This document shows positions 49,064 through 52,000 of a DNA stretch of 64,000 nucleotides, piece after piece. Source of the DNA: Bugula neritina (Eukaryota > Bryozoa > Gymnolaemata > Cheilostomatida > Bugulidae); contig OZ037766.1 of NCBI GenBank assembly GCA_964035545.1, forward strand, positions 2,414,501 through 2,478,500, given 5' to 3'. The notes beneath the pieces were generated by a model. That model did no database searches, was not told the DNA's origin, and was given only the letters and a program-made list of their open reading frames with translations. Every line of letters begins with the position of its first letter. Position 1 is the first letter of the stretch. The translations under genes and the position numbers were made by a program.

Positions 49064-52000
49064 TTAATTCTTGGGCACTTTTGGCTTTTTCTTTTTCTTT
49101 TTGCTGACTGAAGCTGGATCAGTCTCTGGAATTGCAATTTTCCTCTTTTTGGAGTTGTCTTCAGCTCTAAAAGAATGTCTTGAATACAATATGATTTGCT
49201 ATACGATTAGTGTATAATTGTGTTCATAGTACTGACCGATATAAAACTTATTTATACTAATAGCTATAATGTAACATGTCAAAGTATGTTCTCTAAATTT
49301 AATAACTACTGCAGCCAATGCAGGTGATTTACAGATCAGCTAGAAGAAAATCAGATCAGCTAGAAGAAAATCAGATTAGCTGAAGGAAAATTCCCACCTT
49401 TTAACACTGATGATGTTTGGCACTCGGCCAGTAGCAGAAAGAGCCGTGTCCCAGTCTTCTTCTCTTCCTTTTATCTTGTACTGTGCCAACATGTCTTCTG
49501 TCAGCACTTGAGACTTGAACTGCTCCTTCGCTGCCTTTTGTGACTTTTCATGAGCTGCCACTGCGTTGCTCTACAAAATATTTAAACATAGAAGCGAGTG
49601 GTGACCAAATAAGTACCAGTTTTATAATCATTCACCAGCTTTAATGGTTTTCAGGTGTGTAGCCATGTCCTAAATCAAAGGTAGAAATGCTTACCAGCTC
49701 CTGTTCTAGTTGCTGGTATTTAGGATTTGGTGTTGTCTTTCCCTGTTGAGACAATTCTTCTCTCATAGCTTCTTCAAGGATTGCATTGAGTGACTGAAAA
49801 CACAAATAACACTCAAGTTTTAGAGTAAACCACAAGCAGTACTCAAGTATTCAGAGTAAAACACAAGCAGTACTTCATTGTTAAGAGTAAAACAAATAAT
49901 GAATACTCCGTTGTTATAAGCAATTCTTTCTATTAATTACTTATTTTAATCATGTTGTTAGCCAGAAAAGGAAAATTAATGTAATAAACATTTAACTATA
50001 TACCATTTTGATTATGTTTGCAGTTACTAATATATAGTGTATATATTATGTAGTAAAAAAGCTTTAGCTATGTAAAGCATAATCTATTGTGGGTAATTTT
50101 TAGTATTGCATTCTTTCATTTATGGGGGTTGTTCTAGCGTCACAGCCCGAAAGAAAGTACAACCATGTTATTCAGTCAATTATCTAGCACCTTGGGTGGC
50201 AATTATGATGGTGGAACTAACAAGTCTAAAATTATGCAATAGTTTCATTAAATTTCCTTGTACATTACCTGATAGCATTTTACAACAACTTTATTCAACA
50301 GGGCCATCACTTGAGTGGAAGGTTTATTCACTTCTGTTTCTAAGATTTCAACTGGTTTACGCTGCAGTCCAACACTGAGTAGCAAATTCTAGAATCATTG
50401 AAGAACTATTTAAAACTGCAAACACTATTGTTGATGAGCAATATTACTGGTAGATTTTACTGCAATTGGTTTCACATGTTCTCACATAGCTTAATATTTT
50501 GCATGCACACTACATGCCTGGCTATAATACATGCACTACTTTCAAGCATTGTTATGCTCTGCCAGGCTATAATATACACTTTATCTGCATGCAAATGTAT
50601 GTTTCGCATACAGATAGTAATATATAGTACTTTATACTCAAAAATATACATGTAGATGTGGGTTTTGACAGCTACAAGTGTAAATTACATGACCCATTTA
50701 TGTGCACCCAATATGCTGATTAAATATACACAAATTTAACCTGTTATTTGCATATATATATATATATATATATATATATATATATATATATATATATATA
50801 TATATATATATATATATATATATATATATATATATATATATATATATATATATATATATATATATATATATATATATGATTGATTGAGCACTCTCACCAT
50901 GGTCACAAACTCAAGCTGCTAGCATTTTGCAATGCTCGTGACTCCTAGGTGACCCCTAGAGTCACTTGAGCACTCTGGCTTGAATTTACACACCTCTTAA
51001 ATATGCTTTAGTAAAACTATAAGTTTTACTATTGCGAAGGTGTGGGCCATGGTACTCTGTTCTGTGCTGATGAGGGGACAAATCCCGAAACAGCTGCTGT
51101 CCACAGATTGAGATATATATATATATATATATAATTACTATTGAGTGATATAGTTATTCAAGAAAAAATTGTAATACAATTACACATTCTAGACGCTGCT
51201 GCTGCTGCCGCCTCACCTGCTGCACATCGCTGAGCAGGACATCTGGCATTTTTCCAGAGAAGTAGAACTTGGCAATGTCAGGAATTAAATCCATAATGAG
51301 ACTAAAGTCAACTAATTTGCTGGAGTATTTCTTCAATCTTTTTATATCGTGGAGAGTAAAAAAGTGGTTCAACTCTTTCATAGTGACCTCTGTAATTTGT
51401 GCAATATTTCATTGAATATCCGAATTAAAACGAAAAGTTAAAACTGCCACAAATATTATAGAAACAATTTATAATTCCTGCATTTTAAGTAATTTTTTAT
51501 ATGAATAAAAAAGCTACTATTCTAAGTTCATTTAGAAGATCACATAAAGCACTTACTGTTGGTATTATCAATATCTCTGTTGTTCTCGTGGGACTCTAAG
51601 ATAGCCTGTGGTCTTTGCAAAAGATGTACAACTAAAGAGGAGGGATAACTTCTGAAGCTACTTGACAATAAAGTGATAAAACCCCTTTGAAAATCTACAA
51701 TGATACACATAAGTATGTTGTATATAAAACCTACAACCATGTGTGCAAAACCTTTGCATAAAACCAGTAATGGTGCACACAAAATTTTTGTATAAGCATC
51801 AGAAATAAAAACTGATACATTAGCCAATTTTATGAAATATAAATATTTTATTTCAACAGTTATATGTTTTCTTTTGGTTTTGCTGAACATGTTGTATTTG
51901 GATGCAGTTGTATAATTATATGCATTAGTGATGATCACTTTGGGCAAATGGTCATATACAGGTAATGGTCTAATCATGTTATAAAATGACGCTATTCTTA

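Follow-up and report, generated by a model that had tools for sequence, protein, structure and literature searches.

A type I hammerhead ribozyme in an intron of a NAT10-like gene of Bugula neritina very probably belongs to a dispersed non-LTR retrozyme family in TA microsatellites

The window analyzed here, a stretch of 64,000 nucleotides from the genome of the bryozoan Bugula neritina, contains a type I hammerhead ribozyme motif within an intron of a NAT10-like gene. The motif is the 3' part of a truncated copy of a 271-bp repeat, which is very probably one copy of a family of non-LTR retrozymes, i.e. of non-coding, non-autonomous elements with a type I hammerhead, that moves by the cycle proposed below. 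The way in which its copies are inserted suggests that circular or multimeric RNA was reverse-transcribed at TA microsatellites by target priming.

All 47 bases of the motif, read from the sequence, fit a type I hammerhead on the plus strand (Table 1). The CUGANGA and GAAA cores, a NUH cleavage site, and three helices are present, and stem I forms the open end. In agreement with the original prediction of a complete ribozyme, the cleavage triplet is GTC and stem I is Watson-Crick paired at all six positions; the predicted cleavage junction lies between GTC and CACAGATTGAG. Stem II of the window copy consists of three G-C pairs and one G.U pair, and stem III of three base pairs and the usual A-U pair. 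In hammerhead-constrained folds, the distal part of stem I is separated by a predicted internal loop formed by TGT (51058-51060) and TT (51108-51109). This internal loop and the loop ACAAA of stem II could engage in tertiary contacts of the loop 1-loop 2 type.

Table 1. Features of the hammerhead locus, ordered by position in the window
Feature	Position	Strand	Basis
Intron of NAT10-like gene, 828 bp	50389-51216	-	GT..AG on the minus strand, read from sequence
(AT)63 tract on the 5' side	50752-50877		sequence
5'-truncated retrozyme unit, 232 of 271 bp, without the first 39 nt	50881-51112	+	genome matches, other copies
CTC, predicted distal stem I with GAG 51110-51112	51055-51057	+	hammerhead-constrained circular folds (prediction)
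Type I hammerhead ribozyme, predicted self-cleavage at 51101/51102	51061-51107	+	sequence and covariance model
Stem I, 5' strand TCTGTG	51061-51066	+	sequence
Core CTGATGA	51067-51073	+	sequence
Stem II, GGGG 51074-51077 / TCCC 51083-51086, loop ACAAA	51074-51086	+	sequence
Core GAAA	51087-51090	+	sequence
Stem III, ACAG 51090-51093 / CTGT 51097-51100, triloop CTG	51090-51100	+	sequence
Cleavage triplet GTC	51099-51101	+	sequence
Stem I, 3' strand CACAGA	51102-51107	+	sequence
GAG, predicted to pair in distal stem I; fixed 3' end of the element	51110-51112	+	folds, junctions
(AT)n tract, target of the insertion or tail, directly after the fixed 3' end	51113-51133		sequence, other copies

A descriptor of the stems matched only these 47 bases on both strands of the whole window, and a loose pattern was found once as compared with 0.03 expected from shuffles. 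The strict form of the descriptor (stem I of at least 6 bp) had six matches per 600 million strand-bases simulated with the trinucleotide composition of the window, which corresponds to 0.0013 per window, or to roughly one in every 50 Mb of DNA when both strands are counted. The claim that a random occurrence is improbable was thus borne out for the window. The motif alone is not decisive, since the window was picked after a wide scan and a few chance matches are predicted at the scale of a genome.

A search of Rfam at the gathering threshold gave no match for the hammerhead locus, and a permissive search of 1101 bases up to an E-value of 5 did not retrieve a hammerhead. The best result with 86 bases was RF03152 (RAGATH-1-hammerhead) with 15.2 bits and an E-value of 1.4, aligned to 51061-51106; this family is listed together with RF00008 (Hammerhead_3) among the nearest known families. 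The core and the helices align to RF03152 without marked mispairs, but the score compares with a gathering score of 56.3. One of the two outcomes set in the original prediction as refuting it, a missing covariance-model match, was therefore obtained with Rfam. The test is blind, however: seven viral-contig loci with clear hammerheads, used as positive controls, gave no Rfam matches either, and one of them reached 14.4 bits. As clear viral-contig hammerheads score no better, the Rfam miss is not counted against the hammerhead.

A purpose-built covariance model, R1, was trained on 23 hammerheads from IMG/VR contigs, which are presumed to be phages. The training set was gathered by the core pattern from the window, with stem I, stem III, and loop II left free. 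The pattern CTGATGAGGG..CCCGAAAC..GTC retrieved 45 viral stretches, 43 of which hold at least one hammerhead motif according to the stem descriptor, while no motif was found by this descriptor in 8 prokaryotic stretches and in 7 stretches from a looser viral pattern. In the training alignment, 99.0% of the cells are paired and 11 of the 14 pairs show two-sided changes, which represents strong covariation. The best match of R1 in the window covers exactly the 47 bases of the motif with 37.5 bits and an E-value of 9.8e-9; the only other match has 19 nt and an E-value of 0.22. No homologue of the element was found in viral and prokaryotic contigs, and a single 17-mer match (L061) was taken as chance. 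Several viral contigs (L017, L027, L038, L043, L048, L053, and others) contain three hammerhead motifs each, which lie hundreds of bases apart and remain below the Rfam gathering thresholds at the loci tested.

The reality of the hammerhead is decided by the genome-wide repeat family. The sequence 50882-51112 has at least 58 matches on contigs C1-C9 of its own genome (215.8 Mb), a lower bound obtained with 40 of 682 candidates scored, and 57 of these 58 have 98-100% identity; some are spaced by exactly 271 bp. Exact genome copies are numerous for a 20-mer from the 3' end (361), the 35-nt ribozyme core (186), the 3' end running into ATATATATATA (203), and the internal junction between two units (45), and the reversed control of each gave 0. 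Several arrays consist of 271-bp head-to-tail repeats with up to four units, and dispersed copies reach 99.6% identity. The suggestion that the hammerhead has the form found in mobile elements is in line with this position in a dispersed repeat. The GC content of the unit is 0.43, and the element looks non-coding since no stretch of more than 47 codons is free of stops in an array of four units. The family thus has the properties of retrozymes, namely head-to-tail hammerhead units of 271 bp that are dispersed, multicopy, and non-coding, and the window copy is a single unit of this kind.

Other copies reveal a 40-nt part of the unit of which the window copy keeps only the last base. Compared with the unit of locus L077, the window copy has two substitutions in 232 positions (50984 and 50996). 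A 224-nt circle, delimited by the GATTGAG motifs at both ends of the window copy, was considered and found to be wrong: copies elsewhere in the genome have a unit of 271 bp, which includes both GATTGAG motifs. Diverged relatives of the element with 77-94% identity are also present (L070:91-205, L065:1-198, and L141), which suggests a long period of activity for the family.

Of 108 ribozyme copies, counted after removal of duplicates by context, 84 retain the core together with all 14 pairs and 16 have an altered core; the G.U pair of stem II is changed to G-C in at least 19. The copies diverge by 1.9% in the ribozyme vs. 2.1% in the rest of the unit, so that the resident copies show no visible selection. 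Of the 82 arrays described below, only 6 contain more than one intact ribozyme. The window copy should release no circle by itself, as it is 5'-truncated and has a single ribozyme.

RNA of 50882-51112 is predicted to fold far better than 200 shuffles of it (z -5.1). Only three of 415 sliding windows, evaluated with 20 shuffles each, have a lower z; two of them overlap the (AT)63 tract, one including part of the element, and the third overlaps another TA tract. Folded as a circle, the 271-nt unit of L077 has a predicted energy of -99.6 kcal/mol (z -8.4), and none of 200 shuffles was as low. The circular optimum is without the hammerhead, and enforcing it costs 3.7 kcal/mol; the constrained circle adds the distal stem I (GAG/CTC) beyond the internal loop. 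The predicted molecule is a highly self-paired circle in which the ribozyme would be free to form.

Insertion junctions were studied in 80 regions fetched around places of the 3'-end 20-mer, taken from 100 of the 361; the choice of this 20-mer favors intact 3' ends and ribozymes but is neutral on the following sequence. With HSPs of less than 25 nt dropped, the regions contained 82 arrays, as three regions gave two arrays and L152 gave none under the chaining rule, and these represent at most 81 independent insertions. Two of the loci, L166 and L167, lie about 15 kb apart on C3 and are identical over 1820 bp, which indicates a segmental or assembly duplication. The 3' end is fixed at unit position 271 in 80 of the 82 arrays. 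The whole-element search, which favors full-length copies, concurs in that 57 of 58 matches end at query position 229-231. The 5' starts vary from position 1 to 240, with 21 of the 82 at positions 1-2 and the rest between 4 and 240, and the arrays span 0.12-3.0 units.

In 73 of the 82 arrays, the 3' end is followed within 22 nt by a TA run with a length of at least 12 nt, as compared with a background of 0.3% in the window apart from this locus. TA runs also precede the 5' end in 50 arrays and are found on both sides in 45. No convincing target-site duplication was detected in the 18 arrays without a 5' TA flank; where TA is present on both flanks, such duplications would be hidden. Oppositely oriented retrozyme copies occur as close pairs at L159, L154, and L162. 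At L159, the 3' ends face each other across 74 bp, with a TA repeat of at least 60 bp from either side, which gives the impression of insertions into both strands of a single microsatellite.

The base that follows GAG is encoded by the element and distinguishes two subfamilies, in which GATTGAG is followed by A, as in the window copy, or by G, and then by TATTACG. In 14 of 14 readable arrays (8 with A, 6 with G), the base after GATTGAG at the internal junction is the same as the base before the terminal (TA)n. It follows that the element serves as the template for the junction base and that the TA tract is joined somewhere inside the TAT that comes next. Among 29 full-length last units, in which a few loci are counted twice and the 5' base may be that of the flank, the junction bases agree in 28 and are discordant in one. 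Neighboring units of the same array have a mean difference of 0.6% (0.006 over 11 unique pairs, one of them at 4%; L077 equals L125, so 2 of 13 pairs were duplicates), as compared with 2.6% for units of different arrays (990 pairs, in which L080/L115 and L076/L148 are the same loci taken twice). Of these 990 pairs, 14% are as alike as the within-array mean computed before removal of the duplicate pairs. The small divergence within arrays fits a scenario in which each array would have been copied from one molecule.

The sequence itself documents the repeat family with its ribozyme motif, the constant 3' terminus, the truncated copies, the arrays, their TA surroundings, and the junction base that the element encodes; cleavage, circularization, and TA priming are inferred. 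The proposed cycle would be initiated by transcription of arrays with at least two ribozymes. Each hammerhead would cut after GUC, and the resulting 271-nt monomers would be closed by a host ligase into a highly paired circle. A reverse transcriptase from another element would then use a nicked (TA)n strand that primes on the UAU after GAUUGAG(A/G). Copying would proceed backwards across the rejoined cleavage site, sometimes for more than one round and with variable stops. This sequence of steps would leave a fixed 3' end, variable 5' ends, and near-identical unit arrays inside TA repeats. The predicted cleavage site is located only 11-12 nt upstream of the TA join and, accordingly, the template must have been intact across this site, either as a circle or as an uncut multimer. 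It is possible, and tentatively proposed here, that the copies of this family document, in a natural setting, the target-primed reverse transcription of circular ribozyme RNA into TA microsatellites. The UAU by stem I of the circle would serve as the landing signal that anneals to nicked TA, so that TA microsatellites would be the target of the family, and the enzyme would cross the religated site within the first 11-12 nt.

Copying from uncleaved multimeric linear transcripts instead of circles would account for the arrays and for the crossing of the cleavage site equally well. Furthermore, a Penelope-like enzyme used unprocessed RNA in vitro, and ribozyme mutants did not affect insertion by this enzyme in the experiments cited from PMC11167929. 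Long multimeric templates should be scarce, however, since 76 of the 82 arrays have one or no intact ribozyme. The near-identity of most units within an array and the accumulation of coral, mussel, and axolotl retrozymes as circles, as described in the cited part of PMC7229834, also argue against linear templates, which are considered unlikely. A chance resemblance of intron sequence to a hammerhead is a different matter. About one match to the strict descriptor is expected per 50 Mb, and the isolated 47-mer has a better fold without the hammerhead (-12.2 vs. -9.3 kcal/mol). Against this stand the E-value of about 1e-8 with the independent covariance model and the 186 exact core copies, vs. 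0 for the reversed control, within a structured repeat. A look-alike retains almost no probability and is ruled out by the repeat family.

The remaining alternatives concern the role and the origin of the window copy. Amniotes carry intronic hammerheads, as reported in the cited part of PMC6155905, and by analogy the position inside the intron might indicate a domesticated ribozyme that regulates the NAT10-like gene. This is highly improbable given that the ribozyme is antisense to the gene, that near-identical copies are dispersed genome-wide, and that the ribozyme is not more conserved than the rest among the copies. The window copy is probably without function for the gene. The locus could also be a pseudo-LTR fragment of a Penelope-like element with a minimal hammerhead. 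Such elements carry type I hammerheads, stem III is short, and Penelope-like elements have been called a strong candidate partner of retrozymes (PMC7229834, cited part). However, stem III is present here, whereas motifs of the Penelope type usually lack it according to the passages cited from PMC7761336. In addition, when the unit is masked and the 1.5-kb flanks of 25 loci are compared, only 12 of 300 pairs have any sequence in common, and these loci thus have no longer element in common. The origin from a Penelope pseudo-LTR is very unlikely for these reasons and also in view of the search for endonucleases. In the own genome, no Penelope-like endonuclease was recognized via PF01541 (GIY-YIG). 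The single match presumably represents a protein resembling SLX1 and not a Penelope endonuclease; this result leaves room for divergent Penelope endonucleases.

Regarding a partner enzyme for the retrozyme family, four sampled repeat groups with reverse transcriptase (two copies each, presumed to be LINEs) were compared with the unit. None of them ends in (TA)n, and similarity to the unit is confined to matches of 12-26 nt with a best E-value of 5e-4. Reverse-transcriptase frames that match PF00078 are numerous in the own genome. Among the 150 that were scored out of 2124 candidates, nearly all are stop-free and many have identical scores, from which several retrotransposon families look recently active.

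The window copy is best explained as one truncated unit, inserted antisense into an intron of the NAT10-like gene. Minus-strand frames match the Pfam domains TmcA_N, NAT10_TcmA_helicase, GNAT_acetyltr_2, and tRNA_bind_2. These domains of NAT10 RNA cytidine acetyltransferase flank the intron, with tRNA_bind_2 matched on both sides; the donor is at 51216 and the acceptor ends at 50389. As the gene is on the minus strand, the ribozyme is antisense to it, and the original assignment of the locus to a NAT10-like intron is confirmed in both respects. The window contains two NAT10-like genes in opposite orientation (49400-58897 on the minus strand and 61045-63607 on the plus strand), with pieces of the TmcA_N and helicase domains on both strands; the second gene seems to extend past the end of the window. 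Further upstream, a large inverted repeat complex (18858-27703) has arms of about 2.6 kb with 89% identity and further copies with 81-94% identity, and it probably consists of nested transposable elements. An array of a 15-bp unit with 19.5 copies is located at 38893-39187, and a related shorter array lies reversed at 38625-38742. A stop-free frame of 243 codons at 45834-46565 encodes short repeats rich in Gly and His (HGLPHGIP..) and, judging from this composition, may possibly encode a secreted structural protein.

The mobility of animal retrozymes is unsettled. In PMC7229834, it has been hypothesized that circles are reverse-transcribed by LINE or Penelope enzymes with priming by the DNA target or a small RNA; according to the cited part of that report, priming of circles is proposed but undemonstrated. 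The family described here offers clean insertion junctions with a fixed 3' end, an element-encoded base, variable 5' ends, near-identical arrays, and a microsatellite setting. They lend themselves to direct assays in which a recombinant reverse transcriptase is given a TA target. The insertion record of the family is unusually legible and points to priming at TA microsatellites from circular or multimeric RNA.

Several known systems resemble this family. Plant LTR retrozymes are likewise non-coding hammerhead retroelements with circular RNA, but differ in having type III hammerheads, LTRs, PBS, PPT, and RNAs of about 600-1000 nt, according to the parts cited of PMC4918200, PMC7229834, PMC6155905, and PMC7761336. 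Penelope-like elements and Terminons share the type I hammerhead and the tandem habit (PMC7761336 and PMC11167929, cited parts), and in one Penelope-like element reverse transcription is described to start at fixed internal sites. As characterized in these sources, they are protein-coding and their motifs are usually without stem III, in contrast to the presence of stem III and the lack of a long frame in the family described here.

The closest likeness is to the metazoan non-LTR retrozymes of Cervera and de la Pena (2020, PMC7229834), for which the cited sections describe tandemly repeated units of 150-450 bp that carry a type I hammerhead, have a GC content below 50%, and lack LTRs. Their sizes are given there as 225/245 bp in Acropora millepora and 227-233 nt in jellyfish, their RNAs as highly paired circles, and their target-site duplications, when present, as longer than 4 bp. 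The family from B. neritina shares with them the type I hammerhead, the unit size in the range of 150-450 bp, the GC content below 50%, the head-to-tail arrangement, the lack of LTRs, a highly self-paired predicted circle, and a species-specific sequence. It differs in its bryozoan host, which is not named in the cited sections of PMC7229834, and in consisting mostly of single, often truncated units, whereas dimers to large multimers are described there. The TA microsatellite setting with one fixed 3' end is a further difference, the word 'microsatellite' being absent from the main text of that report as far as cited. A limited search of the open-licence literature found no paper that treats bryozoa and the hammerhead ribozyme together, and Bryozoa appears to be added to the phyla with retrozymes. 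The element in the window is best classified as a truncated copy of an animal retrozyme that is new and comes from a bryozoan; in its intron the copy most likely has no function.
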